Part shown: one piece after another, positions 4,057-34,851 of the stretch | Layout: every line of letters begins with the position of its first letter | How positions within the stretch are numbered: position 1 is the stretch's first letter | From: a virus | Direction: 5' to 3' (one strand) | Virus record (IMG/VR): IMGVR_UViG_3300032954_000040 | Coordinates: 1 to 40,745 of that record | DNA: 40,745 nt | Program-made: the position numbers and the translations under genes | The notes under the pieces: model-generated | What the model was told of the DNA's origin: nothing | Seen by the model: only the letters and a program-made list of their open reading frames with translations | Databases searched by the model: none

Positions 4057-6051
4057 ATGGCAAATATCGTTGATGAACTTGTCATTACTCTCGGCCTCGA
4101 CGCCTCTCAATTTACCGCTGGCTCGGTCAAGATCAAAGATGACCTTGAGCAATTAAAGCGTGAATCCGAAGATCATGGCAAGAAAGTTGAGCACTCTGCC
4201 GGCACAGCAACGGCAGCGTATGCGAAACTGCGCAACGAAGTTATGGCGCTGACGGCGCTATTTGTTGCCGGGCTTGGCATAAAGGAATTCACCACTAATA
4301 CGAATATATTTAACGCCGCGACCGGGCAACTGGCGCAGAACATTGGCCTGACGACTGAACAACTTTATCTTTTAGAGGAAGGTGCTAAACGTTTTGGCGG
4401 CACGTCCGAGGCTACTGCTGGTTCACTTTCAGGGTTAATGAGTGAGCTTCAACAGTTTTCAATTACTGGTCAATCGAATCTTTTACCTTTCTTCAGAACA
4501 TTACATATTGATATTGGCGGACTCCGCGATGGCACTAGAAGTTTTTATGATATTATCATTGAGCTTCATAAAGCCTTAAGTAAAATGACCTCAACCGAGG
4601 CAACTCAGTGGGGCAAAATGTTTGGCCTTGATCCAGCGACAGTAATGTTGTTGCGTCAAAGCGACGAGGAATTTCAAAAACTAATTCAACACATAAAAGA
4701 AATTGGCGTGCCGACTGAAAAAGATATTCAGTTAGGTCAAGAATTTAGAGGCGCGCTAGCTGACCTTGAGCAAGCATCGAAGATGTTTGGCTTGACATTA
4801 CTGCGCGATTTGAACCCTGAAATTATAAAAGTAATGAAGGGTATTGAGAGTTGGTTACAAAACAAAGATAATATCAAAGCGGTCGAAACCTGGGTCCTTG
4901 ATGTAGAGCGGGCTATTAAGCAAGTTGTTGATGCACTCGGCGGTTGGAAGAGTGCAACGGAAATTTTGTTTGGCCTGTGGGCGTTTTCTAAAATATCTCC
5001 ATTGCTGGCTAACATCGGACTTATTACCGGCGCCATTTTTGGCGTTGGCGCAACGATTTCTGGCGTAACAGCCCTGTGGTTGGCATTTCTTGCTGCGTTG
5101 GCGCTTACGCCAGAATCAGCGCCGGGCGCAGCAGCAAGAAACAAAGCTGGCCTTTATGATCAACCCCAACAGCCAAGCCTTCAAAATCAATGGGAGCAAG
5201 AGCATCCGGGACAGAAGTTTTCCTTTGGAAAAATGGTCGGTGGTGCATGGCAGTCTGCTAAGGATTGGATGTTTGGAAAGGACGAAGATAAGCACGCCGC
5301 CGCGTTGCGTGATACGTTATCGCGAGATTTGGGGATAAGTAAAGATGCGGCATCTGGATTAGTCGGCGGCAATCTTATTCCAGAGAGCAACCTAAATCCT
5401 AATGCAGTAAATCCAACATCTGGCGCCCTCGGGCTGGCTCAATGGCTTGGTCCGAGAAAAGATGCTCTGTTTGAGTGGGCCGCATTAAACAAACTTGACC
5501 CCAAAAAAGAATCCACACAGCTAGGATTTCTTGAGTGGGAACTAAGGAATACATTTCCTGATGTATTAAAGGCATTGCAGGATGGAAGAATAACCCCACA
5601 ACAAGCAACGAATTATGTTTTACATCATTACGAGAAACCCGGAGATCAAAGCCCGGCAGAGGAACAGCGACGTGGCGATATTGCTCGACACGTTGCGGCA
5701 TTGCCGAGTCCAGAACCAACCGCGCCGCCATGGTATCACCCCACGCCGGCATCTCCTACCGTGCCGGCAGTCCCCAGAACAACGCCGGTCATTCCTCGTC
5801 CGACACCTATGCCCGATCCATCTCTACGCTTGGCAACGATACCGCGTGCTCAGATTATGACTTCGGCTTCTAATAGCGTAATAAACACCAACACAACATC
5901 TCACGCCGCGAGCAATATAAACAATTCCACCACCATAGGATCAATCAACATCCAGACAGCGGAAACCAGTCCGGACGGATTGGCTAAGGGTTTGAAAGGT
6001 GCGTTGCAACGTTATCAATTGGCGGCAAACGCCAATACTGGCTTAGTATGA
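4057..6051 (+). CDS. Tail tape measure protein with lysozyme-like domain
   Basis: 664 aa, ATG 4057 with an AGGAGATCGGGGTT leader. The N-terminus (VDELVITLGLDASQFTAG, then a Lys/Glu-rich helix) is typical of tape measure proteins. Two hydrophobic stretches lie near residues 65-85 and 300-350. Residues about 425-550 resemble the phage tail lysozyme domain (Phage_lysozyme2): GISKDAASGLVGGNLIPESN with a likely catalytic Glu443, then GALGLAQWLG and an RR-GDIARHV end. It sets tail length and may open the cell wall locally during DNA entry. At 664 residues it implies a fairly short tail. The Pro-rich and Asn/Thr-rich C-terminus (570-640) is probably a linker. The stop overlaps the next start (ATGA). 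Confidence 0.85.
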   Translation: MANIVDELVITLGLDASQFTAGSVKIKDDLEQLKRESEDHGKKVEHSAGTATAAYAKLRNEVMALTALFVAGLGIKEFTTNTNIFNAATGQLAQNIGLTTEQLYLLEEGAKRFGGTSEATAGSLSGLMSELQQFSITGQSNLLPFFRTLHIDIGGLRDGTRSFYDIIIELHKALSKMTSTEATQWGKMFGLDPATVMLLRQSDEEFQKLIQHIKEIGVPTEKDIQLGQEFRGALADLEQASKMFGLTLLRDLNPEIIKVMKGIESWLQNKDNIKAVETWVLDVERAIKQVVDALGGWKSATEILFGLWAFSKISPLLANIGLITGAIFGVGATISGVTALWLAFLAALALTPESAPGAAARNKAGLYDQPQQPSLQNQWEQEHPGQKFSFGKMVGGAWQSAKDWMFGKDEDKHAAALRDTLSRDLGISKDAASGLVGGNLIPESNLNPNAVNPTSGALGLAQWLGPRKDALFEWAALNKLDPKKESTQLGFLEWELRNTFPDVLKALQDGRITPQQATNYVLHHYEKPGDQSPAEEQRRGDIARHVAALPSPEPTAPPWYHPTPASPTVPAVPRTTPVIPRPTPMPDPSLRLATIPRAQIMTSASNSVINTNTTSHAASNINNSTTIGSINIQTAETSPDGLAKGLKGALQRYQLAANANTGLV

Positions 6052-12845: not shown

Positions 12846-14276
12846 ATGAGTGGCAGCACAAACGTTCCGAAGCCGGTTTTTGGGCCAAATGGCTATATCC
12901 TCCCGACCGAGAGCGTGATTCTAGCGGGGGTGCAGGCCGATAATAATGCTGCGTTCGGCGGTAATCTCTCTGCGCAGTTATCTACGCCACAGGGTCAACT
13001 CGCCTCTAGCCTGAGTGCCATTATTGCTGATTGTAATGATCAGTTTCTTTTGGTCACGCAAGGCTGCGATCCGGCTTATGCTACGGGCCGAATGCAGGAT
13101 GGCATTGGTTACATCTATTTTATCACTCGGTATCCTGCCCTTCCCACTACGGTCCAATGCACATGCACCGGCCTTGCCGGGGCATTAATTCCGACCGGAA
13201 CATTAGTGAAGGACACATCGGGCAATATCTATACTTGCACATCTGGCGGGAGTTTTGATGTAAATGGCACGGTTAGCTTGTCATTTGCCAATATCGTCAA
13301 TGGGCCAATTCCATGTCCCGCCACAACATTGTCGGTTTTGTATCAAACCGTTCCGGGTTTTGATACAATCACCAATCCATCGGATGGTGTTCTGGGACAA
13401 AACGTCGAAACGACAGCGGAATTTGAAGCGCGTCGTCAGGCTTCGGTGGCGATGAATGCCAATGGTTTTATTCCGGCCATTACCGGCGCAGTTTTAAATG
13501 TTAAAAACATACTTGATGCCTATGTCATTGATAATTCGACCAACTCGCCTATCATTTCTGACGGAGTAACAATAGCACCGTTTTCTTTATACGTTTGTGC
13601 CGCTGGTGGTTCAAGTCAGGACATTGCGCAAGCAATATGGTCTAAAAAATCTCCCGGCTGCGCCTATTCAGGGAATACAACAGAAACGGTCATTGATAGT
13701 AACTCCGGTTATGTTCCCCCGCTACCCTCATATCAGGTGACATTTCAAACTGCCGTCGCTCAAACATTCGTTATATTGGTGACAATAAAAAATTCAAATT
13801 CAGTTCCTAACAACGCTGCATCTTTGATACAGACTGTTATCTTAAATGCGTTTGCGGGAGCGGATGGAGGAAGTCGGGCGCGGATTGGTTCATTAGTGTT
13901 GGCGAGTCGTTATTATGGAGGAATTCAGTCCATAGGAACGTGGGTGGAGATCATTAATATCAAGATCGGTTCCAATGTGGCGCCAACGGCATCATTCAAT
14001 GCTAATATTAGTTCTACGACGTTGACCGTTAACTCCGTTACAAGTGGAACACTTGGCGTCGGTCAGGTATTAAATGGAACAAACATTCCTGATGGTGTAC
14101 AAATAACAGCATTAGGATCGGGGACAGGGGGTGCTGGCACTTATACTATTAATATTGCGCAAAATATCAGTAATCAAAGTATGGTTTCAATTCTTCCGAC
14201 TCTCGATGATGTTCAGGTTGGCATCGCTCACGTTCCTGTATTGTCAGCGGCAAACATCTTAGTGGTGTTACAATAA
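12846..14276 (+). CDS. Baseplate J-like wedge protein with an inserted beta module
   Basis: 476 aa, ATG 12846. Features of the baseplate J family are ATGRMQDGIGYIYFITRYPA, DTITNPSDGVLGQNVETTAEFEARR and a C-terminal IVVLQ end. It forms the wedge ring that triggers sheath contraction. Residues about 384-448 are the extra beta module also found in the neck and sheath proteins (ASFNANISSTTLTVN to GSGTGGAGTYTINIAQ), here placed just before the family's C-terminal segment. The stop overlaps the next start by one base. A structural role is certain in broad terms; the module's function is unknown. Confidence 0.85.
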   Translation: MSGSTNVPKPVFGPNGYILPTESVILAGVQADNNAAFGGNLSAQLSTPQGQLASSLSAIIADCNDQFLLVTQGCDPAYATGRMQDGIGYIYFITRYPALPTTVQCTCTGLAGALIPTGTLVKDTSGNIYTCTSGGSFDVNGTVSLSFANIVNGPIPCPATTLSVLYQTVPGFDTITNPSDGVLGQNVETTAEFEARRQASVAMNANGFIPAITGAVLNVKNILDAYVIDNSTNSPIISDGVTIAPFSLYVCAAGGSSQDIAQAIWSKKSPGCAYSGNTTETVIDSNSGYVPPLPSYQVTFQTAVAQTFVILVTIKNSNSVPNNAASLIQTVILNAFAGADGGSRARIGSLVLASRYYGGIQSIGTWVEIINIKIGSNVAPTASFNANISSTTLTVNSVTSGTLGVGQVLNGTNIPDGVQITALGSGTGGAGTYTINIAQNISNQSMVSILPTLDDVQVGIAHVPVLSAANILVVLQ

Positions 14277-14904: not shown

Positions 14905-16254
14905 ATGCAGATTAGCGCAATACCACAAAAAATGACCCTATATTGGGGCCAATTTGCTGGTCAAAGTTATATTCGCCAAGTTCCTACTCCATCACAAATT
15001 GGTATTCAAAATGGTGCAGCATCATTCACTGATGGATTTCCACCGTTAACCACAATCGCTGTGGCTGCCGGCGGGGTGCCACCTTATGGCCAAGATTTCA
15101 ACGGAATCCTCCAACAGATTACACAATGGAATCAATGGCAGCAGGTCGGTGGTCCTGTTCAATACGATGGGACATTCTCATCTGGCATTAATGGCTACCC
15201 CAAAGGCGCCGCGATACAATCAATTAATTCCAATTTGGTTTGGCTCAATTTAGTTGATAACAATACAACAAATCCAGATTCAGGGGGCACGAACTGGACA
15301 CCGCTCTGTTCGGCGTGGAGTGCGTCGGTCTTCGTTGCTTCTGGCAGTTCCTCGAATGTTTTGACAGTGGTTCTTAACCCGGCGCCGGCTAATCTTGCTG
15401 CTTTGGTTGGGATTCCTATTTATATTCAAAATCCGATTAATTTCACCAGCACGGGAGCCGTCACATTAAATCCTAATAACCTGGGAGCGATTTCTGTCGT
15501 CAATAACGATGGTACGGCATTGTCTGCCGGCTCCCTTCAACCGAGTGGTATTTATGGACTAATTTATACTCAAGCGGGAGTATTTCAGCTTATATCGCGC
15601 ACTAATGTTTTTACCGATCCTAATGTGGGAGCAATAACGCTTGTGGGGCCAGGAAGCAATGGTGCTAATTTGGCCTTAAAAGGCAATGGTATAACAACAC
15701 CAAATAAATTCATTCGAGTTGTTAGCGGAGTTTTGCAAATTGTTAATAGTGCTTATAATAGCGTCATTGCAACTTTAACAGATGGCGGTATTCTTACAAT
15801 AAACGGTAATATAAATTCAAGTGCCAGCATTTCAGCGGCCAGCGCCGTATCGGCTAATCAAATAAATTCATCGGGTAACGTTACGGCAGTAGAAAATGTT
15901 CAGGCTGGTGTTGGGGCGTTTGGTTCAGGTAACAATAATAATTGCACGATATTGGGCGATTGGACAGCGGTAAATTCAACCAATGGACTTTTGCGCCACC
16001 CCAATGGTTATATCGAACAATGGGGACAGGCATCGACCGGCGGTTCAGCGACAACTATTACATTTCCTTACACATTTCCTCATGCCTGTCTTAATGTTCA
16101 AATAACCAATTTTCTTGGCGCTTCATCCGGTCAGGCGCCGACTGTATGGCCGGGGGCTTGGATTAATGGCGCCGGTTCGTTTAATGCCTTACAAAGTAGC
16201 TCATCAGCGAATGCACAAGCTGGAACAATATTCTGGCGAGCGGTTGGTTACTAA
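14905..16254 (+). CDS. Tail fibre protein with gp53-like receptor-binding tip
   Basis: 449 aa, ATG 14905 behind GGAG with 7 bases spacing. The N-terminal 120 residues (VPTPSQIGIQNGAASFTDGF, GGVPPYGQDFNGILQQITQW, GYPKGAAIQS) are the fibre base seen in many prophage side fibres. The shaft (about 130-350) is low-complexity beta sequence. The C-terminal 100 residues (LLRHPNGYIEQWGQAS, TITFPYTFPHACLNVQITN, final FWRAVGY) match the gp53-like C-terminal receptor-binding domain. It probably recognises the host surface. The next gene is a likely assembly factor. Confidence 0.85.
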   Translation: MQISAIPQKMTLYWGQFAGQSYIRQVPTPSQIGIQNGAASFTDGFPPLTTIAVAAGGVPPYGQDFNGILQQITQWNQWQQVGGPVQYDGTFSSGINGYPKGAAIQSINSNLVWLNLVDNNTTNPDSGGTNWTPLCSAWSASVFVASGSSSNVLTVVLNPAPANLAALVGIPIYIQNPINFTSTGAVTLNPNNLGAISVVNNDGTALSAGSLQPSGIYGLIYTQAGVFQLISRTNVFTDPNVGAITLVGPGSNGANLALKGNGITTPNKFIRVVSGVLQIVNSAYNSVIATLTDGGILTINGNINSSASISAASAVSANQINSSGNVTAVENVQAGVGAFGSGNNNNCTILGDWTAVNSTNGLLRHPNGYIEQWGQASTGGSATTITFPYTFPHACLNVQITNFLGASSGQAPTVWPGAWINGAGSFNALQSSSSANAQAGTIFWRAVGY

Positions 16255-16808: not shown

Positions 16809-17200
16809 CAACTTCATTGTTACTCGATGTTGTGAGTTGGGATTTAGTGCTCGATGCTTCTGGCAACATTGCGGTATGCGATGCGCCCTATGCCATAGCT
16901 CAAGATGTCGCATGTGCCATTCGCTTGTTTCAGGGCGAATTATGGTACGATACGAGTCAAGGTGTTCCATATTTTCAAAACATTCTCGGTCATGCGCCGC
17001 CGCTTGGCGTTTTGAAAGCGGCCATTAATACGGCGGCGTTATCAGTGCCTGCGGTCGTGGCATCTCAGACTTACTTGTCGAGCGGCCCGTCGCGGGGTAT
17101 TATCGGCCAGTGCCAAGTGACTGATGAAGTTGGAAGACTCCTTGTTGTCACCGGCAATCTTGGACCATCCGGGCCGACTCTCGTTTATGTTGTAGGATGA
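16805..17200 (+). CDS. Baseplate wedge protein, gp25-like
   Basis: 131 aa, ATG 16805 overlapping the previous stop (ATGA). The sequence VVSWDLVLDASGNIAVCDAPYAIAQDVACAIRLFQGELWYDTSQGVPYFQNILG is the conserved core of the gp25/lysozyme-like wedge family (not enzymatically active in phages), which joins the baseplate to the first sheath ring. The C-terminal VTGNLGPSGPTLVYVVG is typical of the AP22-type version. It is displaced downstream of the fibre genes, while in many relatives it lies before baseplate J. Confidence 0.75.
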   Translation: MTTSLLLDVVSWDLVLDASGNIAVCDAPYAIAQDVACAIRLFQGELWYDTSQGVPYFQNILGHAPPLGVLKAAINTAALSVPAVVASQTYLSSGPSRGIIGQCQVTDEVGRLLVVTGNLGPSGPTLVYVVG

Positions 17201-17382
17201 AAATGAAAGAACCCGAAACAGAACACAACAATATTCCATCCATAGAAATGTTAACACCGCAAATGTGCTTGGTGATGCTGGAACGAGCAATTTTGGCGAT
17301 GCCGGTTAACAATCCTTTTATTCCCGGAAAACTATGGAATAATTCCGGAATTGTTTGCGTCTCATCGGGAGAAGATCATTGA
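17197..17382 (+). CDS. Small protein with a phage tail LWNN motif
   Basis: 61 aa, ATG 17197 overlapping the wedge gene stop (ATGA). The C-terminal half (LAMPVNNPFIPGKLWNNSGIVCVSS) follows the pattern LPxSNPGxxxxxLWNNGGVVxVS, which is also present twice near the end of the 637-aa protein at 7386 and is common in phage tail proteins. The N-terminal half is unremarkable. A TTG start for the methyltransferase overlaps its TGA. Function unknown; probably a minor virion or fibre-associated protein. Confidence 0.6.
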   Translation: MKMKEPETEHNNIPSIEMLTPQMCLVMLERAILAMPVNNPFIPGKLWNNSGIVCVSSGEDH

Positions 17383-18194
17383 CTGTTAAAGGTGTAGCTC
17401 TATCTCAATCTAGGCAAGCCGCTTTTGTTCTTGTTGCGACGGATCATGGCAGTATGATCATAAACAAAAATGATTACTGCACAGGCGAGCGTGGAACATT
17501 TGGCGTTGGTTATGAGATTTTGAGAAATTCAAATTTCAGCCTTAACGAGTGCCTTTTGATCATTCAGCTATTGACCAAAAGGCAAAGTAACTTCCCTGGT
17601 GAAATGATTGCCATTGATGTAGGCGCTAATTACGGCACGCATACATTGGCGATGGCTCGGACGCTTACCGGATGCGGCAAGGTTATTGCCATTGAGCCGC
17701 AAGAGAGAATCTATTACGCTCTTTGTGGCAATGTTGCTCTCAACAACCTCATGAATGTAACGGCTATTCGTTCAGCAGTTGGATCACATAACGGTATCAT
17801 AAAAATCCCCGTGCCGGATTACCTTGCGCCAGCAAGCTATGGAAGCCTTGAATTGATCAAGAGCGATGAAAATGAAATCGTTGGTCAAGTGATTGATTAT
17901 TCCGATAGTGCCACCGTGCCAGTAACGCTAATGACAATTGATTCTTTGCTTCTGGATCGTTGTGATCTTCTAAAGATCGACGCCGAAGGAATGGAAATGT
18001 TTGTTATGGAAGGGGCGGCGAAAACCGTTACTAATCATAAGCCGATATTATTTATTGAGGCATTTAAAATACCATACGAGCTATTTATGGATACGTTAAA
18101 ACGATTTGGCTATACGGCGTTTTATACTATCGGACTAAACGTTGTAGCTTTTCACGCCGACGATCCGACCAAGGAGTGTATGGTCCATGAATGA
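17379..18194 (+). CDS. FkbM-family methyltransferase
   Basis: 271 aa. The chosen start is TTG 17379, which overlaps the previous stop and has GGGAGAAG a few bases upstream; another TTG at 17355 is in frame but lacks such a site. Residues 80-89 (DVGANYGTHT) are the AdoMet-binding motif I, followed by VIAIEPQE (acidic residue 106) and LLKIDAEGMEMFVMEGA, all hallmarks of FkbM (Methyltransf_21) enzymes, which O-methylate sugars or polyketides. It is coupled to the GT9 glycosyltransferase (8-base overlap), so the pair may build or modify a glycan. The substrate cannot be read from sequence. Confidence 0.85.
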   Translation: MTVKGVALSQSRQAAFVLVATDHGSMIINKNDYCTGERGTFGVGYEILRNSNFSLNECLLIIQLLTKRQSNFPGEMIAIDVGANYGTHTLAMARTLTGCGKVIAIEPQERIYYALCGNVALNNLMNVTAIRSAVGSHNGIIKIPVPDYLAPASYGSLELIKSDENEIVGQVIDYSDSATVPVTLMTIDSLLLDRCDLLKIDAEGMEMFVMEGAAKTVTNHKPILFIEAFKIPYELFMDTLKRFGYTAFYTIGLNVVAFHADDPTKECMVHE

Positions 18195-19380
18195 TATGAT
18201 GGACAATGATTTTTGCGACATGCCGAGTGTGGTTAAGCTATTGAAGGAAGAACGTCCACAAAAAATCAGTGATCCATTGCCAATTCAATACATTCCAGGC
18301 CGAGAGTGGGCCTGCGTCATTCGCCTCGGCGCCATCGGTGATGATCTGATTGCTACGTCGATACTTCCATTGCTGGCAAAGGACTATAACGTTGAGGTCA
18401 TTGCCGAAGACCCTCAACACGTAATTTTTGAAAATAATCCCTATATCGCAAAGCTAACGGTGAAGAAGCGTGGAGATTTACCGGAAGGCCAGAATAACGA
18501 GTGGCAGAATTGGTTTGCCGCTCGCTCAAAAGAATACGCAAAATTTATTCATCTATCGCATAGTTGCGAGGATGCAATTGCGTTTTTCCCGTGTCAGACT
18601 AAGTTCTGGTATCCCGACAGTGTGCGGCGCAGGTTATGCAGCGGCGTGTCATATTTGGAATATGTTCATGATATTGCGGAAGTTCCACATGTATTCAGGC
18701 CACAATTCTTTCCGACTGAGGCTGAGAGGACAAAAGCTCAGGAAACCAAGGCCAAGGTTGGCAGGCGTGTCATCGGATGGGCGATATCCGGAAGTCGTTT
18801 CGATAAGATTTATCCTCAATCCCCCATGGTCATTGGTCGCTTGATCAAGGAACTTGATGTGCCGGTCATCCTCTTTGGTGGACCGGGCAAGGATAACGTC
18901 ATAGCGAAACAGATCATGGAACACGTCGAGCGGCAGAATGGTACGACCCAGGGACTTCATCTTGCCCTTACCCCCGACGTTCCGGCCGGCACACAGGCAT
19001 GGGAGATGGGCACAGGCACGCATGTCGAAATCAAGGATGCACCCCCGCCTTTGTGGCCGATTCGACGGTCCCTGGCTCAGATTTTGACGATGGACCTGAT
19101 GATCGGACCCGATACAGGCTTAATGTGGGCGGCGGGGATGGAACCTTTCGGCAAAATAATGTTATTGTCACACGCATCCCCAACGAATATAACTAAACAC
19201 TGGATCAACACAGTAACGCTTCACGCTGACCAAAAGCGCGTGCCTTGTTTCCCTTGTCACCGGCTGCACAACACCATCGACACATGCAAGCCGAACAAGG
19301 AAAATAACGGTGCCGCGTGCATCACTGACATCAATCCGGAGGATATAGTACAGGCGGCAAGGAAACTTCTTGATGTTTGA
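18187..19380 (+). CDS. Glycosyltransferase family 9 (heptosyltransferase-like)
   Basis: 397 aa, ATG 18187 with GGAG 10 bases upstream. Residues 46-60 (RLGAIGDDLIATSIL) match the N-terminal GT-B motif of ADP-heptose:LPS heptosyltransferases. Residues 308-317 (PDTGLMWAAG) match the C-terminal donor-binding motif DTGxxHxA, with Trp in place of the usual His. Several Cys residues cluster near 345-365 (CFPCHRLHNTIDTC), as in family members with a Cys-rich loop. It probably transfers a sugar onto a host or phage glycan. It lies next to the FkbM gene and right after baseplate genes, an unusual location. Confidence 0.8.
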   Translation: MNDMMDNDFCDMPSVVKLLKEERPQKISDPLPIQYIPGREWACVIRLGAIGDDLIATSILPLLAKDYNVEVIAEDPQHVIFENNPYIAKLTVKKRGDLPEGQNNEWQNWFAARSKEYAKFIHLSHSCEDAIAFFPCQTKFWYPDSVRRRLCSGVSYLEYVHDIAEVPHVFRPQFFPTEAERTKAQETKAKVGRRVIGWAISGSRFDKIYPQSPMVIGRLIKELDVPVILFGGPGKDNVIAKQIMEHVERQNGTTQGLHLALTPDVPAGTQAWEMGTGTHVEIKDAPPPLWPIRRSLAQILTMDLMIGPDTGLMWAAGMEPFGKIMLLSHASPTNITKHWINTVTLHADQKRVPCFPCHRLHNTIDTCKPNKENNGAACITDINPEDIVQAARKLLDV

Positions 19381-20068
19381 ACCGATATCCCGTATTGATG
19401 CTAAACAACTCGGTTTGAAACGATATTTCATAAACGCTCCATGCAAGTATGGTCACGTTGACGAAAGACTCGTATCGAACGGCATGTGTTTTGCTTGTGC
19501 TAGGGAAAAGGCTACGCGCTATAATAAAACAGAATCCGCTAAATTAGCTCAGGCCAAAATGAGGATAAAATTAAAAGATAAGCGTAATGAGCAATCTAGA
19601 GCTTGGCGCTTAGCTAATCCTGGCCGACAGGCTGAGTTATCAAAAGAATGGATAAAAAATAACAAGGATAGAAGAAATAAATATCGTAGATAATATTGCA
19701 ATGAAAAATATTCAACAGATGTGCAATTTAAGTTAAAGATTATTTTGCGTAATAGTTTGAACGGGATCGTGTGGCGAGGGAGAAAAGGTGGATCGACAAT
19801 ACGAGATTTGGGGTGTTCGTTAGCTGAACTAATTGATCATTTATCAAAACAATTTACTGATGATATGTCATGGGATAATCATGGTGCAGTTTGGGAAATT
19901 GATCACATAAAGCCTTTATGTTCATTTGATCTTACGGACAGAAATCAATTTATTAAAGCTGTTCATTATACAAATCTTAGGCCATTATATAAAGAGGAAA
20001 ATAATAAGAAATCACATAAAGATAAGGCTGAAGCTAAGCGCGGGTACAGTACCGTGTGTAGTAACTAA
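19373..20068 (+). pseudogene. HNH homing endonuclease, split by an in-frame TAA
   Basis: ATG 19373 opens a frame with an N-terminal zinc-ribbon pattern (CKYGH, then CFACAREKA) and a basic helix. A TAA at 19691-19693 then stops it after 106 codons. The same frame continues through YCNEKYSTDVQFKLKIIL to an HNH core, WEIDHIKPLCSF and HYTNLRPLYKEENNKKS, ending at 20068. The two parts together have the usual length (about 230 aa) of phage HNH enzymes. A single C-to-T change (CAA to TAA) would explain the break. It starts inside the end of the GT9 gene and ends 20 bases before the intron-bearing gene, so it is a likely former partner of those introns. Readthrough or a sequencing error cannot be excluded. 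Confidence 0.75.
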
Positions 20069-20087: not shown

Positions 20088-20989
20088 ATGGCTGGAATTG
20101 GAGCCTGAAATTGGGCCTTTAGGGAGTAATCCTTATCGAATGAACCGGGTGAATTCAGGAAACGGCCAGAACGGTTAATCCTGAGCCAAGCCGTCGAAAG
20201 ACGGAAGGTGCAACGACTATCCCGCAAGGGAGTAGGATCAAGCGATCCGAAGCGCCCGGCCCCGAGAAATCGGGTGATGATATAGTCTGGTCTATATAGG
20301 AATATATAGCAGTCCGAAAGGACGGTGACGGTCTAGCGAATCGTTACGAACACTTCGATGCCCAAAAGGCCATGCTCGATTGGGTTTGCGGCGGCGCAAC
20401 CCCGACTCGCCCGACAACCTGGGGAGTTGGGCTTTCGCTCGGCGCACCGTCCTCGACTTCCGGTTCGGAAGTTGGAACGGGTTCCGGCTGGACGCGGCAG
20501 ACTTGCCCGTTTCCGGCCGCGTCCTCGCCGGCTGGTTCGGTTTCGAACAGTGCGGCGATGACGTTCGGTCCTGGCCTCACTGCCGCGACGTTCAGCGGTA
20601 TCCAGCTTTGGGACACCATGGCCGTTACGGCGGGGAATATGCTTGGGTCAATTTGCTAGGCCCCTTTAGGGAGCAATCCCTATCGAAGAACCGGGTGAAA
20701 ACGGGGAACGGCTAGAACAGCTAATCCCGTGCCAAGCCTCAAAAGAGGAAGGCGTAACGACTAGGGGGAAACCCCGTAGGGCCAAGCGGCCCGAAGCGCC
20801 CGGCTCCATCGCAAGATGGATGATGATATAGTCTTCTCTGCATGGGGACATGCAGCAGTCCGCAAGGGCGGTATCGGATTAGCGAACCGATACGAAAGTA
20901 AGGATGGCACGTTGGCCACGGTACGTACCCTGGGTGTTGGCGATAGTCTTGTTATCGCTGTAGGCGCCCTTGTTATTACCCTGGCGTAA
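20088..20989 (+). CDS. Small tail-fibre-domain protein, split by two group I introns
   Basis: Predicted exons are 20088-20106, 20358-20648 and 20904-20989, giving 131 aa after splicing. ATG 20088 has a near-perfect ribosome site (AAAGGAGGT). Without splicing, exon 1 hits TGA after six codons. Both junctions rebuild a Tyr codon (T|AT): GIGA-Y-AQKAMLDWVCGG and GNMLG-Y-GTLATVRTLGVGD. The joined protein then follows the same plan as the N-terminal domains of the proteins at 21192 and 23395: a short helix, a WGVGLSLGAPSS-type strand, SVSNSAAMTF, IQLWDTM, and a final LVITL strand. Exon 2 is much richer in G+C than its neighbours. Splice points are inferred from reading frame, a terminal intron G and homology; the last few bases could shift. 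Confidence 0.75.
20107..20357 (+). ncRNA. Group I intron 1 (subgroup IA-like, about 251 nt, no internal ORF)
   Basis: The core can be paired by eye. P3 is CCGGGT with GCCCGG. P4 is TCAGGA with TCCTGA. P6a is CCGTC-gaaa-GACGG. P7 is GACTA with TAGTC (in ATATAGTCT). Two extra hairpins between P7 and P3 (TCCC-gcaa-GGGA and GGATC-aagc-GATCC) fit P7.1/P7.2 of subgroup IA, and P8 is CCCGA-gaaa-TCGGG. The 5' exon ends in GCCT and pairs with GGGC about 7 bases inside the intron (P1 with a U-G pair); the intron ends in G at 20357. At about 250 nt it is near minimal size. Intron 2 preserves the same helices with different bases, strong evidence for the fold. Confidence 0.85.
20649..20903 (+). ncRNA. 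Group I intron 2 (close relative of intron 1, about 255 nt)
   Basis: It has the same helix order as intron 1. P3 (CCGGGT with GCCCGG) is unchanged. P4 is CGGGGA with TCCCGT, P6a is CCTC-aaaa-GAGG, and P7 is GACTA with TAGTC. P7.1 is GGGG-gaaa-CCCC, P7.2 is GGGCC-aagc-GGCCC and P8 is TCCATC-gcaa-GATGGA. Helices P4, P6a, P7.1, P7.2 and P8 differ from intron 1 by paired changes. The 5' exon end GGGT can pair with GCCC in the intron (P1). Its 3' part (TAGCGAACCGATACGAA) is almost the same as in intron 1. The intron ends in G at 20903, giving T|ATGGC exons. No ORF is inside. Confidence 0.85.
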
Positions 20990-21155: not shown

Positions 21156-21191
21156 ATGTCGCCAACTCCTTGAAGCCGGGAGACATTGCTG

Positions 21192-23387
21192 GTGGTCGGA
21201 CTCAGTGATTATTCCGCGCAAAACTGGCTGAACTACCTCACCGGCCGTTCGGCCATGCCCGCGACGCCCACGGCTTGGCTTGCGTTATTCTCAGCGGTCG
21301 GCGCCGATAATAACACAGGATTTACGGAAATCAGCGGCAATGGTTACGCGCGCGTCAACACGAGCGGCAAATGGACAGCGGGTGCCGGTGGCGGTGGACC
21401 CATAACTATTTCCAATAGCGCAACATTAGCATTTCCGATCAGCACGGCATCGTGGCCGCTGGCGATTGCGTGGGGACTATTTGATGCTTCCGGCGGTGGC
21501 AATTTACTATGTTGGGATTGGCTCGGCTCCAATTCTTGGTGGCCTTACACGGCAACGTCAGCGTCTCCTAGTGTAATAACAGCAAAAGGAATAACCCAAG
21601 GTAGCCCGACCGCTTTTGCAAATAGTTCCCCTGTCGTTATTGATGAGGAATTTGGTGGTTCATTGCCAACGGGAATTGGTGCAAATACGCAATACACCGT
21701 TGCAGGATTGTCGAATGATGTTTTTAATATTGGTGTGAATACAACATCAACCGGCGCTGGTATGATCAATCCAATTGTTCCAGTGACAATTGGGTCTGGT
21801 GTTATTTTTAGTTTTCCTGCCGGCTCTTTGGTTCTCGCCTCTGGACCAATCAACGGATTCATCAATACAGCATCTCAATCCGTAATTGTAATAGATTCAC
21901 GCTATCAGAATCCGGCAAAAACCATGACGGATTCTGCCGGTGTTATATGGAGAACAAATCCAGCATGTCAGGTGATGTTCAATGGAACTATCGACGCTAA
22001 TACATCGCAGGTCGTTAAGATGGCTCTTGTTGGTAGTAATGTCTGGTACTTAAATTATGCCAGCACTTGGTATTTTAAGAGCGTAACTGCAAGTCCATCC
22101 TCCGGTGGTTGGACGGCTGGTTCAAATCCGCTTCCTGCCGGGCAGGCAATTAGAATACATGATCTTGTTGCTACGTTCGGAGTTAATATTCTTCCGGTAT
22201 ATAATCAAGCCGGCGGCGCAGGGATTGTAAGTAGTGCAATTCATTTATCGTCAATTCAGTATCTTGGCTTTACAATGGTCAGGGTGCAATGCTCTCAGGG
22301 GAGTGGGAGTAGCAGTCCCACCGCCGCGCAAACATTGTATTTAACTCAACATGGTGTACGTGGGCATTTTATTGTTGGTCAGCAAGGAAGCAGTAATGGC
22401 AGCAACTTTGCCTCGTGGATCGCGGCGCAAATATCTGATACTGGTATTGCTTCTATTTTTGGGTTTGAAGTTACCAATGAACCAAACAACAATGGATTAA
22501 GTGCGGCTCAGGTTCAATCATTGTGCTCTTCACTTGGGTCCGCTGTCGCCGGAAATTCTAATACGAACAATGTTGTCCCGGCAATTTCATTCAGCCCTGG
22601 ATACCAAGGGGGAACAACGGCAACGAGTTTTGTAACCGCCGTTGGTGATCAAACAAGCAGAGGTATTCATTGGGGCACTTGGCACGGATACACGCAAAAC
22701 GGATCGAATTTATGTGTGCAACCCTGGGCAAATCCCAATGGCGCGCAGGATGCTAATACATGGACAAGAGTCGAGTGCCCCGGAAGACCTTACGTATTAG
22801 GAGAATTTGGCGTTCTTATACCGGGATCAACCGCTAGTTATGAACAAGCTACGGCTGCTGCCGGTGGTAAAATGATGCTTAATTATTACTTAGACTCTTA
22901 CTACAATGGAGCAGCCGGCGTATTCCAATTTGAATTGTTTGACGAAACTGCTGAAACATTTGCCTTATTTGATCCTAGCGGTAATCCATATCCTTGCGCC
23001 ACGGTATTTCATAATTTCACAACAATCATAGCCGATGCGGGTGGAACGGCTTCATCATTTAACCCATCGGCCTTGAATTATTCTATATCAGGCCTACCTA
23101 CAAGCGGTACATATTGGGGAAGATCAATGTTGTTCCAAAGTTCTAACCTAGCATTCATACTTATTATATGGAATGAACCGGAAGTTCAATCAGGCCCTCC
23201 CGCTACCGATACTACGCCAACAACAACAACAGTGACAATTACAATCAACCAAGCCTTTTCCAGCGCGAATCTATATGATCCAACTGTCGGCACATCATCG
23301 GTACAGAACTTTGGCGCCATTACATCGGGGCAACAAATAACTGTTGGATTAGTAGGCTATGCTAAAATCGTTATATTGACTCCGTGA
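21192..23387 (+). CDS. Tail protein fused to a GH-A-type glycosidase (putative depolymerase)
   Basis: 731 aa from GTG 21192, which has GGGAGA 8 bases upstream; TTG 21186 is in frame but too close to that site. Residues 1-120 are a fibre attachment domain shared with 20088 and 23395 (LSDYSAQNWLNYLTG, GFTEISGNGYARV, WGLFDASGGGNLLCWDW). Residues about 120-220 are an inserted beta segment also found at 23395. From about residue 300 there is a TIM-barrel glycosidase pattern: FGFEVTNEPN with a likely acid/base Glu430, and YVLGEFGV with a likely nucleophile Glu538, 108 residues apart as in clan GH-A. The final 100 residues are beta-rich. It probably cuts host capsule or surface polysaccharide at the tail tip; the substrate is unknown. 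Confidence 0.75.
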   Translation: MVGLSDYSAQNWLNYLTGRSAMPATPTAWLALFSAVGADNNTGFTEISGNGYARVNTSGKWTAGAGGGGPITISNSATLAFPISTASWPLAIAWGLFDASGGGNLLCWDWLGSNSWWPYTATSASPSVITAKGITQGSPTAFANSSPVVIDEEFGGSLPTGIGANTQYTVAGLSNDVFNIGVNTTSTGAGMINPIVPVTIGSGVIFSFPAGSLVLASGPINGFINTASQSVIVIDSRYQNPAKTMTDSAGVIWRTNPACQVMFNGTIDANTSQVVKMALVGSNVWYLNYASTWYFKSVTASPSSGGWTAGSNPLPAGQAIRIHDLVATFGVNILPVYNQAGGAGIVSSAIHLSSIQYLGFTMVRVQCSQGSGSSSPTAAQTLYLTQHGVRGHFIVGQQGSSNGSNFASWIAAQISDTGIASIFGFEVTNEPNNNGLSAAQVQSLCSSLGSAVAGNSNTNNVVPAISFSPGYQGGTTATSFVTAVGDQTSRGIHWGTWHGYTQNGSNLCVQPWANPNGAQDANTWTRVECPGRPYVLGEFGVLIPGSTASYEQATAAAGGKMMLNYYLDSYYNGAAGVFQFELFDETAETFALFDPSGNPYPCATVFHNFTTIIADAGGTASSFNPSALNYSISGLPTSGTYWGRSMLFQSSNLAFILIIWNEPEVQSGPPATDTTPTTTTVTITINQAFSSANLYDPTVGTSSVQNFGAITSGQQITVGLVGYAKIVILTP

Positions 23388-23394
23388 GGCAGGA

Positions 23395-24048
23395 ATGACG
23401 GGGGCAACGTATTATTCTTATATTAATCTACTGAACTATTTGACCGGCTTTGCGGCGATGCCGTCAACGCCGACGCCTTATGCTGCTTTGTTTACTGCTG
23501 TTGGCACTGATGCCGGAACAGGATTTACCGAGGTTTCCGGCAATGGTTACGCGCGATCAAATTCTCTCGGAGCGTGGAGTGCGGCGAGTGGTTCTGGACC
23601 TAGCACAATTTCAAATTCAACAGGGATTAATTTCCCAACTGCAACCGGAGCGTGGACGGGTATCGTTGCCTTTGGTATTTTCGACGCTTTAACAAGCGGA
23701 CATTTATTGTTTTGGGACTGGATCGGCAATGATCCCTGGTTCCCTTTCAATTGCACCTTGGCGTCTCCGGGAGTTTTCACAGCGCCGGGTATTACGGCAG
23801 GATCGACTCCAACTTTGGTTAATACGGCAAAGGTAGTTTTCACAGCGCAATATGGCGGGGGATTTCCGTCCGGAATAACACAATCGACACAATACACGGT
23901 TTCCGGACTTAGCTCCGATTCATTTAACGTTAGTACCAATACAACAAGTGTTGGATCGGGTTTTGTAAGACAAGTTACACCAGTAACTATTTCAAATGGC
24001 CAGACCGCGCGATTTAATATGTCGAACCTTACTCTCACCGCAACCTGA
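23395..24048 (+). CDS. Tail protein paralogous to the N-terminus of the glycosidase
   Basis: 217 aa, ATG 23395 after GAGGCAGGA. It aligns by eye over its length with the first 220 residues of the protein at 21192: INLLNYLTGFAAMPSTPTPYAALF, GFTEVSGNGYARSN, FGIFDALTSGHLLFWDW. This is followed by the same inserted segment (GGGFPSGITQSTQYTVSGL, DSFNVSTNTTSVGSGF). It lacks the glycosidase part. Tandem duplication with loss or gain of the enzyme domain is the simplest history. It may be a stand-alone attachment subunit. Confidence 0.75.
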   Translation: MTGATYYSYINLLNYLTGFAAMPSTPTPYAALFTAVGTDAGTGFTEVSGNGYARSNSLGAWSAASGSGPSTISNSTGINFPTATGAWTGIVAFGIFDALTSGHLLFWDWIGNDPWFPFNCTLASPGVFTAPGITAGSTPTLVNTAKVVFTAQYGGGFPSGITQSTQYTVSGLSSDSFNVSTNTTSVGSGFVRQVTPVTISNGQTARFNMSNLTLTAT

Positions 24049-30910: not shown

Positions 30911-31129
30911 ATGAACTTCGGAGAAGTCATTTATATGCTTCAGGCGGGTAAGTGTATTGGCCGACGGGGATGGAATGATAGAGACATGTATATTTACATG
31001 CAGGAATTTCCCGGCTTCATGCCGTGCATTATTTTGAAAACGGATCAAGATGACCTACAGCCTGGATGGCTTCCGTCGCACGCTGACATCTTTGCGGAAG
31101 ATTGGTACGAAGTCTGTTTTCCGGAGTAA
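30911..31129 (+). CDS. DUF2829 / Tad2-like protein (possible anti-Thoeris)
   Basis: 72 aa from ATG 30911, which has AAAGGAGAGAAC in front; an upstream in-frame start at 30833 overlaps the previous gene and has no such site. The family pattern is complete: MNFGEVIYMLQAGKCIGRRG, W21, N22, DMYIYM, MPCIILKT, LQPGWLPSHADIFAEDW. DUF2829 includes Tad2 proteins, which bind cyclic signal molecules of the Thoeris system (and in some cases CBASS) and so block host defence. Not every DUF2829 member has been tested, so anti-defence activity is an inference from the family. Its place between virion and lysis genes suggests late expression. Confidence 0.8.
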   Translation: MNFGEVIYMLQAGKCIGRRGWNDRDMYIYMQEFPGFMPCIILKTDQDDLQPGWLPSHADIFAEDWYEVCFPE

Positions 31130-31890: not shown

Positions 31891-32694
31891 ATGACACATG
31901 CTTATGGCCGCAAGCCGCATGACCCACGTAAATTGGCGTTGGCTCCGAGTCTCGCTGATCATGCCGTGACAAAAATGACGCCACCGCCGATTGTGGATCG
32001 GTCGCAGGTGCCGTTTCATCCTAAAATGTGGTCAAACGATATTTATCCATGCTGCACATGTAGCGCCTATGCCAATATGGCACTCGGCGTTGGAACGCTG
32101 AACGATACTCTGGCGTCTTACACATTTAGCCCGCAAAATGCGCTCGATTTTTATGCGCGTGTTGTCAATATCAATCCTTTCGATTTCACCGATCTTCAAA
32201 AGAGTGATGGTACCGAGATTTTGACAGTGTTGCAGGATCAACTCAAATGGGGATGGGAGGCCGATCCGGAAGCCAACCCCTCAGAAATACTTGTGGCCGA
32301 TTATGCCAATGTGCCATTGACTCGTGCCATGCTCGCGAATGCCTGTTACCTTTATGGTGGCGTCGATCTTGGCGTAACAATTTACCAATCCGATGTCGAT
32401 ATAATCGGCAAAGGCGTCTGGAACGCGCCACAGCAAGGTGGCCTTGAAGGTGGTCATTCGCTTGCTCTGTGGGATTATACCGGCCTTACGGACACCGATA
32501 CCGTTCGGCTCGTAACGTGGGGTGGATTCCAACTTGCCACATGGCAATGGATCGAATCGGCCTGTGAAGAGGCATGGGCATTGCTTTGGAAGTGCCTATT
32601 GCCAATTACGCAAAAATCATGGCTCGGCATTGATTCCGCACAGCTTGAGGCTGATTTGATGGAGTTCAATAAACAGATTGATCAGCTTACGTAA
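31891..32694 (+). CDS. Papain-like (C1-type) cysteine peptidase family protein
   Basis: 267 aa, ATG 31891 after AAGGAATAAGAC. NDIYPCCTCSAYANM (catalytic Cys most likely 57) and GGLEGGHSLALWDY (catalytic His) match a bacterial/phage branch of papain-like peptidases. The third site is TWGGFQLATWQWIESA, with Thr instead of the usual Asn before the TWG motif, as in relatives of this branch. It is the last gene of the lysis cassette. It may cut host or phage proteins, or have become a wall amidase; the substrate is unknown. A terminator overlaps the convergent gene right after its stop. Confidence 0.75.
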   Translation: MTHAYGRKPHDPRKLALAPSLADHAVTKMTPPPIVDRSQVPFHPKMWSNDIYPCCTCSAYANMALGVGTLNDTLASYTFSPQNALDFYARVVNINPFDFTDLQKSDGTEILTVLQDQLKWGWEADPEANPSEILVADYANVPLTRAMLANACYLYGGVDLGVTIYQSDVDIIGKGVWNAPQQGGLEGGHSLALWDYTGLTDTDTVRLVTWGGFQLATWQWIESACEEAWALLWKCLLPITQKSWLGIDSAQLEADLMEFNKQIDQLT

Positions 32695-33415
32695 GTAAAT
32701 CAAGAAACCCATTTCTTTGGAGGCGGGTTTCTTTTTTCTGTCTTTTAGCCTCAACGCTACGCATTACATGCTCTTTTGATTTTGGCTTTCCTTTTTGTGC
32801 CATAGATATTTTAGTTTTGGTTTCCTCTGAATGCAAATGATTCGGCTTTCCTTTTTTGGCCATAGACATTTTAGCTCTGGTTTCTTCTGAACGTGGTGGT
32901 CTTTTCTTCTGCGCTATAGAAATTTTAACTTTGGTTTCTTCCGAACGCCGTTTTCCTTTAAGAGCTTCGCTCATATGTCTTTTTGCCTCTTCTGAAAATG
33001 GTCCTTTCTTTTTTCCTATATGAGCTTTTGATATACGTTTTTTGTGTTCTTCTGATTTACTTTTACCCTTAGAAGCTTTAGACATCAACGATCTAGTTTC
33101 TTCAGATGGCTTAGTGCCGGCCATTCCACCTGAATTAAGATTATAACCTTTAGGAACGAGTGTTCCTTCTTGTTTAATAATAATTTGCTCAAGCTCTAGC
33201 AAATTATTACGTGACCAAGACTGAGCAATTACATTTATTGTAAATGCGTCTTTACCATATTTATTGATTGCATGATGAATCGCCCTACAGGATTTTGTAG
33301 AAGTATGTATTTTCCACCTAACTTCTAAACCTATAGTAGTAATGCCAATATAACGCTTACCATTTATTAAATTAGTAATCGTATAAACTAAAAATTCTTC
33401 CAGTTTCTCTGTCAT
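32687..33415 (-). CDS. GIY-YIG homing endonuclease with NUMOD3 repeats
   Basis: 242 aa from ATG 33415, which overlaps the helicase stop as ATGA and has AAAGGA 9 bases upstream; an ATG at 33424 is in frame but has no spacing. Residues about 8-30 (FLVYTITNLINGKRYIGIT) are the GIY-YIG motif, with the catalytic Tyr/Arg/Glu region following (RWKIHTS, LLELEQIIIKQEG). Residues about 100-235 are NUMOD3 DNA-binding repeats (SEETRSLMSKASKGKSKSEE and five to six more). This is a free-standing homing endonuclease placed exactly at the end of the helicase gene, probably a past insertion. It is AT-rich compared with its neighbours. Confidence 0.9.
   Translation of the reverse strand: MTEKLEEFLVYTITNLINGKRYIGITTIGLEVRWKIHTSTKSCRAIHHAINKYGKDAFTINVIAQSWSRNNLLELEQIIIKQEGTLVPKGYNLNSGGMAGTKPSEETRSLMSKASKGKSKSEEHKKRISKAHIGKKKGPFSEEAKRHMSEALKGKRRSEETKVKISIAQKKRPPRSEETRAKMSMAKKGKPNHLHSEETKTKISMAQKGKPKSKEHVMRSVEAKRQKKETRLQRNGFLDLLT
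32702..32737 (+). terminator. Terminator of the rightward operon, inside the GIY-YIG gene end
   Basis: AAGAAACCC at 32702-32710 pairs with GGGTTTCTT at 32725-32733 around a 14-base loop and ends in a run of six T. It follows the peptidase stop by 7 bases and lies within the last codons of the oppositely oriented endonuclease gene, so this stretch is both coding (-) and a terminator (+). Confidence 0.8.
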
Positions 33416-34851
33416 GTAAACCATTCCTTTAGTTTATCACCCTGAACCATTTCGGCTACTGATTTTTTTTGCTCTAATACAGATAAAATCTTCTCATCTA
33501 TAGTACCGGGGCAAATAAAATCAACGTATAATATCGACCTTTCTTGTCCATCTCTATGTACACGATCTTCTGCTTGGGCGCGAAGTTCTAAATCCCAAGC
33601 GTTACTGTAGAATATTACATTTGATGCTGCTATTAATGTCAGGCCAAATGCCCCCGTTGCTGTTGTCGCCACGAAATAATCAGCATCTCCGAATTGAAAA
33701 GCATTAACTGCCGCCTCGCGATCATTCAATGACGTTTCGCCATAAAATGTAACTACCCTTCGATCCGGGAATGCCTTTTCTAATGCACCACTAATAACCA
33801 CGATGTCATGTCGATAGACGCACCAGATAACCACCTTACCGTTCATTTCGTTTAAAACATCTATCAAGATTTCGGTGCGATTGGAGTCAAGACAATGCAG
33901 ATTGCCGGCTTCATCCCTGGCGATACCAAGGACAACACGCTGCATGGCGGTTAGTCGCGCAAGCGCGTTGCTTGTTGTCATGTGAACGCCGGATTCAATT
34001 TCACTGGTAGCCTTTTTCTTAAGATCGTCGTAAATGCGATGTTGTTCATCGGTGAGGGGAACATGGACGCGCTCGAAAATCTTTGGCGGGAGATCGAGGC
34101 AGTCTGATTTCAGCACTCTAAATACATGCGGTTCAATGCGTTCCTGCAATTTATCAAGATCGCGGAATCCATCAACCACCTGAACCGTGCGACTGCCAGC
34201 AACGAAAATTGGCTTTAGCACACAATAGCGCGCTCGAAAGCCGAAATAGCTATTGCCGAGTATTCTTTCCAACCCAAGAAAAGCAAACTGTCCCCAAAGA
34301 TCGAGCGGATTTTTAGGCACGGCAAGCCCGGTCAGCGCGCGCCGGTAGGCGGCTCTCTGGCCTAGCTTGATCATTTCCTTGGTGCGCTGTGCGTCGATGT
34401 TGCGAATCTTTGATGATTCATCGACAATGATCAGTGTTCTAACGCCAACAAAGTTATTCGCGACAGTCTTGGCGGTCTTCGACGCGCCGAGAGCTTCGAT
34501 ATTCATGACCAGAACTGGTAGAATATCGGACGTTGCCATAATGGCATTAAGGTTGCGGCGCTCTTTTTCTAAGCTACCGCCGCGCCAGAGATGCGGTACA
34601 ACTGGAATATCGGCCGGAACATTCTCCGGGATATGCTTATTGATCCAATCGGCATAACTGCCTTTGCCGGCGACAATGAGAATTCTGTTTATTTTGCCCT
34701 CACAATATAGTTCCATGGCTTCGTCAAGAGCCACCTTGCTCTTGCCCGTGCCCATATCCATCATATAGAAAAATGAAGGCCGCTTAGCCGCCTTGGCCAA
34801 CGCCGCAATTTGATGGGCGCGCGGTGAACGAGTCGGCGTAAACGTAACCAT
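33412..34851 (-). CDS. SNF2-type DNA helicase/translocase
   Basis: 479 aa, ATG 34851. Motif I is MGTGKS (residues 33-38), motif II is VDESS (143-147), with DESS in place of DEAH; later motifs include FVATTATGAFGLTL and motif VI QAEDRVHRDGQ (426-436). The order and spacing match compact phage SNF2-like helicases that act in replication or recombination. It shares an operon with a PD-(D/E)XK nuclease and pentapeptide protein, and overlaps the endonuclease start. Complete at both ends. Confidence 0.9.
   Translation of the reverse strand: MVTFTPTRSPRAHQIAALAKAAKRPSFFYMMDMGTGKSKVALDEAMELYCEGKINRILIVAGKGSYADWINKHIPENVPADIPVVPHLWRGGSLEKERRNLNAIMATSDILPVLVMNIEALGASKTAKTVANNFVGVRTLIIVDESSKIRNIDAQRTKEMIKLGQRAAYRRALTGLAVPKNPLDLWGQFAFLGLERILGNSYFGFRARYCVLKPIFVAGSRTVQVVDGFRDLDKLQERIEPHVFRVLKSDCLDLPPKIFERVHVPLTDEQHRIYDDLKKKATSEIESGVHMTTSNALARLTAMQRVVLGIARDEAGNLHCLDSNRTEILIDVLNEMNGKVVIWCVYRHDIVVISGALEKAFPDRRVVTFYGETSLNDREAAVNAFQFGDADYFVATTATGAFGLTLIAASNVIFYSNAWDLELRAQAEDRVHRDGQERSILYVDFICPGTIDEKILSVLEQKKSVAEMVQGDKLKEWFT

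Follow-up and report, generated by a model that had tools for sequence, protein, structure and literature searches.

A single small gene in the fibre region of a phage genome is read in its DNA as three coding stretches set apart by two segments that resemble each other, which raises the question of what these segments are, whether the gene can still give rise to its protein, and how one short gene came to be interrupted twice. The window analysed here (40,745 nucleotides) is the entire IMG/VR virus record IMGVR_UViG_3300032954_000040, and its genes are those of a phage with a contractile tail, baseplate hub and wedge genes being present in addition to the genes listed in Table 1. We consider it very probable that two ORF-less group I introns of a phage clade interrupt a tail-fibre gene of the Gp80 family, that the transcript is spliced to encode a protein of 131 amino acids, and that the introns arrived by homing.

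Other features of the window form the background to this gene. Three different virion proteins, among them the tail sheath and a baseplate wedge protein, carry a similar domain (435-1202, 1213-2952 and 12846-14276, all on the + strand; phrog_38233, phrog_21413). Genes resembling FkbM methyltransferases and glycosyltransferase 9 lie between the tail and fibre genes (17355-19380, +), and a GIY-YIG homing endonuclease gene (phrog_314; 32687-33424, - strand) overlaps the end of a helicase gene on the same strand (33412-34851).

Table 1. Coordinates of the interrupted fibre gene, its two introns and other genes of the window
Feature	Position	Strand	Details	Basis
Tail sheath	at 1213			
Tape measure	at 4057			
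Tail fibre	at 14905			
HNH / endonuclease VII-like gene, free-standing	19370..20068	+	one in-frame TAA at 19691-19693	phrog_1035
Exon 1	20088..20106	+	19 nt, ATG GCT GGA ATT GGA GCC T	MANIxAY-type N-termini of 21 intronless genes
Group I intron 1	20107..20357	+	251 nt, no ORF, terminal G at 20357	RF00028, R1, intronless homologues
Intron 1 catalytic core, P3-P4-P5-P6-P6a-P7-P7.1-P7.2-P8	20143..20288	+		
Exon 2	20358..20648	+	291 nt, 97 codons	PF23140 and homologue alignment
Group I intron 2	20649..20903	+	255 nt, no ORF, terminal G at 20903	RF00028, R1, intronless homologues
Intron 2 catalytic core, P3-P8	20689..20834	+		
Exon 3	20904..20989	+	86 nt, TAA at end	homologue alignment
Neighbour gene with the same Gp80 N-terminal domain	21186..23387	+	uninterrupted	PF23140
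Second neighbour gene with the same Gp80 domain	23395..24048	+	uninterrupted	PF23140
Endolysin	at 31050			

The interrupted gene and its intronless homologues

The host gene is, as judged by similarity, a tail-fibre gene of the Gp80 type. Exon 2 alone matches PF23140, the family of the podophage GP4 fibre protein Gp80, with 58.5 bits (E 1.1e-15) where the curated cut-off is 27. An aaaggagg ribosome-binding site precedes exon 1, and the joined exons amount to 396 nt, that is, 131 amino acids and a stop codon, the product reading MAGIGAYAQKAMLDW...NMLGYGTLATV...VITLA. The gene had thus been given its correct length of 131 codons in a preliminary description made from the sequence, which also held that joining the exons restores a protein like those encoded at 21192 and 23395. 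All three do share PF23140, and the product is 30 and 27% identical to these two neighbours, while an intronless homologue in the viral contig L243 is much nearer at 76% identity.

Twenty-one homologues of the gene were found in other viral contigs, and each of them matches without interruption over about 131 codons (the L262 homologue reads 118). No intron of the clade described below is present at any of these 21 loci, each of which was checked for it. When the joined exons are aligned end to end with three 131-aa homologues, the alignment has 131 columns and zero gaps, and the intron bases are absent from the intronless relatives. These uninterrupted genes fix the limits of the introns at 251 and 255 nt, close to the 250 nt or so first proposed. 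Both introns are inserted after the T of a Tyr codon (T/ATG); the Tyr at the first site is kept in 14 of the 21 homologues, and a YGTL motif marks the second site in most of them.

Two other ways of reading the gene were tried and rejected. Placing the splice ends straight after the last hairpin of each intron (G at 20348 and 20894) makes an in-frame TAA at each junction, and the homologues place the intron ends 9 nt beyond these positions. An altered genetic code, which would have accommodated the TAA codons at those first-tried junctions and the one in the HNH gene upstream, is not needed with the corrected junctions, and TAA also serves as the stop codon of the fibre gene.

In unspliced RNA a stop codon follows straight after exon 1, so that only a six-residue peptide (MAGIGA) would be made and splicing would be required for the fibre protein. 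Since exon 2 consists of whole codons, its skipping would keep the frame, and the product would then have 34 amino acids.

Structure and class of the introns

A search with covariance models bears out that the gene contains two group I introns. In the whole window cmscan finds exactly two matches to RF00028, both within 20088-20989: the first at 20097-20309 (+, 78.2 bits, E 2.3e-18) and the second at 20639-20855 (+, 70.1 bits, E 6.2e-16), compared with a gathering score of 50. The two introns are alike along their full length and, as had been stated before, neither carries an ORF of note.

To describe their structure, 33 introns of one clade, drawn from IMG/VR by one exact core pattern and including the window pair, were aligned. 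Nine helices are proposed, namely P3, P4, P5, P6, P6a, P7, P7.1, P7.2 and P8. Across this alignment 95.0% of cells are paired, compared with 82.6% in shuffles, and 140 cells are changed on both sides, compared with 38.9 in shuffles, a value that none of the 500 shuffles reached. Changes on both sides are seen in 20 pairs, and sliding the partners by one column lowers pairing to 47-48%. P3 and P7 are invariant across all 33 introns and are therefore uninformative by covariation. The shared helix order, and the paired changes in P4, P6a, P7.1, P7.2 and P8 that had been noticed between the two window introns, are confirmed. The folding z-scores of the window pair are -3.35 and -3.46. P7.1 and P7.2 are marks of group IA; here both are present between P3 and P7, and both covary. 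From these sequences, the introns are assigned to group IA, most like orf142-I2 and orf142-I3 of phage Twort.

At the 5′ splice site both introns have a U·G pair, the exons ending in T at 20106 and 20648. The P1 pairing read from the sequence joins exon GCCU to GGGC in intron 1 and exon GGGU to GCCC in intron 2, so that the P1 guide changes along with its exon. P10 of intron 1 appears weak by eye. In the proposed mechanism each intron would fold within the transcript, and guanosine would cut after the U of the U-G pair in P1. The exons would then be joined at the terminal G, remaking the Tyr codon (T/AT) at residues 7 and 104, and the spliced product would be the 131-aa fibre protein.

We regard it as very improbable that the introns have lost their ability to splice through decay, which would make the fibre gene non-functional. 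The endonuclease gene next to them is indeed broken, as would fit a decaying locus, but every helix is intact in both introns, with P3 and P7 identical to those of all 33, and the exons, all open, continue a single frame and match the homologues in length.

Relatives in other phages and the origin of the pair

A covariance model of the clade, R1, was built from the 33-intron alignment. In the window it detects intron 1 at 158.8 bits and intron 2 at 160.6 bits, and no others. The R1 search yielded 65 matches in 50 loci, and the host genes of these matches are mostly virion genes, including those for tail tubes (PF10618), tail sheaths (phrog_165 and phrog_23) and major head proteins (of the SU10 type in L042 and Phage_capsid_3 in L039), while a few matches lie in DNA polymerase and ribonucleotide reductase genes. 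Two or three introns per gene occur in L017, L022, L042 (head) and L048 (tail tube). The environmental introns in tube, sheath and head genes (for example in L048, L020, L017, L022 and L042) belong to the same clade as the window pair and are mostly ORF-less, at one to three per gene, but they differ from it in their host genes and insertion sites. At 3537-3939 of L048, two clade introns of a tail-tube gene flank an exon of about 29 nt. From about 3540 (+) in L050, an endonuclease VII-like frame apparently lies inside the P8 loop of a clade intron.

A near-exact published precedent for the window gene is orf142 of Staphylococcus phage Twort, a tail tube protein gene with three group I introns, two of which are very alike and are separated by an exon of 23 nt (PMC10136302, PMC11878797), much like the short exon in L048. 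Introns I2 and I3 of orf142 are classed as IA2 (PMC10136302). As in the window, multiple group I introns lie in a small tail gene and two of them are alike, but there are three introns rather than two, the gene encodes a tail tube rather than a fibre, the internal exon has 23 rather than 291 nt, and the host of Twort is staphylococcal. In Twort the two best R1 matches, with 95.7 bits at 17019-17175 and 84.2 bits at 17297-17484, have starts that differ by 278 nt. They lie right behind a virion protein gene that comes after the one for the tail sheath, at the place where orf142 is expected. In cluster J mycobacteriophages, too, capsid and minor tail genes contain group I introns, and these are spliced during infection (PMC3706429). 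Compared by description, these differ from the window pair in that there is one intron per gene and the capsid intron contains an endonuclease frame.

It had been proposed that a tandem pair in a small tail-fibre gene is uncommon, phage group I introns usually sitting in replication or nucleotide genes and often alone. The gene does hold two introns and is a fibre gene, but the wider claim of rarity has to be narrowed, with this clade common in virion genes, two or three introns occurring per gene, and Twort orf142 as a precedent.

How the pair arose can be approached through the similarity of its members. The window introns are 75.1% identical to each other, and 79.6% and 77.9% identical to introns of other phages. 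Each intron is closer to introns of other phages than to its partner, which makes it likelier that the two were acquired separately from a common pool than that one was copied within the gene. It is quite unlikely that one of them gave rise to the other in this gene, in either order, through reverse splicing at a new T/AT and subsequent recombination of the DNA copy. Such copying would suit the position of both introns at T/ATG in the same gene and guide sequences that fit their own exons, and trees are compatible with a sister pair (the two window introns as a clade, AU p=0.106). The best tree, however, does not group them, and their mutual identity is below that to introns of other phages. 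Most likely, then, the introns came separately from a pool resident in phage virion genes, and homing would have brought them in along with adjoining exon DNA.

The upstream endonuclease gene and its possible role in homing

A free-standing HNH gene with similarity to endonuclease VII ends 19 nt before the start codon of the fibre gene. Its relatives read through at the position of the TAA at 19691, and the gene is probably a decayed homing endonuclease, the alternative being that the TAA is an assembly error. L003 is without the HNH gene and has a few tens of bases between the upstream gene and the fibre gene. By analogy with known systems, an endonuclease gene at this place suggests past collaborative homing, and the HNH gene may be what is left of the endonuclease gene through which intron 1 was introduced.

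The known case is that of cyanophage S-PM2, where the psbA group I intron and F-CphI, which uses an Endo VII motif, take part in collaborative homing (PMC6083498). In both phages a separate endonuclease VII-like gene adjoins the intron-bearing gene, but the window gene is broken by a stop codon and is a candidate endonuclease from its sequence. On the same model, the HNH endonuclease would cut intronless copies near codon 7, and gene and intron 1 would be copied over together; we consider it possible, if somewhat unlikely, that the two form such a pair. The layout is consistent with this: the HNH gene stops 19 nt short of the fibre gene, whose intron 1 is reached after another 19 nt of coding sequence. 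Also consistent are the endonuclease VII similarity shared with F-CphI, the empty gap in L003 and the similar arrangement that recurs, with GIY-YIG genes, at loci for tail tubes and sheaths. Against it, the adjacent free-standing gene is not intact, its relatives lacking the in-frame stop, and intron 2, which lies 542 nt downstream, is unexplained except by co-conversion.

The recurring layout involves endonucleases of another kind. GIY-YIG or NUMOD3 genes lie directly before intron-bearing tail-tube or sheath genes in L013, L028, L029 and L044, with two of the GIY-YIG matches in this set below the Pfam cut-off. Among 80 tail-tube loci, an intron at codon 7 is present in two, both with a GIY-YIG gene directly upstream, while one locus has the GIY-YIG gene alone and 77 have neither (Fisher p 0.00095, from two positive loci and with a query taken from an intron-bearing contig). 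The HNH gene was rejected as a regular partner of the intron clade, as a clade intron lies nearby in only one of the 79 loci that carry its relatives. In L255, L257 and L262, a GIY-YIG/NUMOD3-like gene, named from its sequence, ends 20 nt before an intronless Gp80 gene (upstream of 2501), so that this gap appears to be a landing place for such genes.

A wider reading, which we offer as tentative and think unlikely, is that a compact, ORF-less intron clade spreads via virion genes (sheath, tube, head and fibre) by borrowing unrelated free-standing endonucleases whose genes settle just upstream of the target, and that the window captures a late stage, in which one gene would have two fixed introns while its helper endonuclease decays.

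For annotation, the locus is a case in which gene callers would miss a 131-aa fibre protein. Collaborative homing involving nucleases from several families could be tested at loci of the recurring kind, where an endonuclease gene lies immediately before an intron close to codon 7. The window gene, with its two introns, is a clear tail-fibre example of a pattern for which Twort orf142 has been the main illustration until now, and a single model finds such introns to be widespread in the virion genes of uncultured phages, beyond the genes of replication and nucleotide metabolism.
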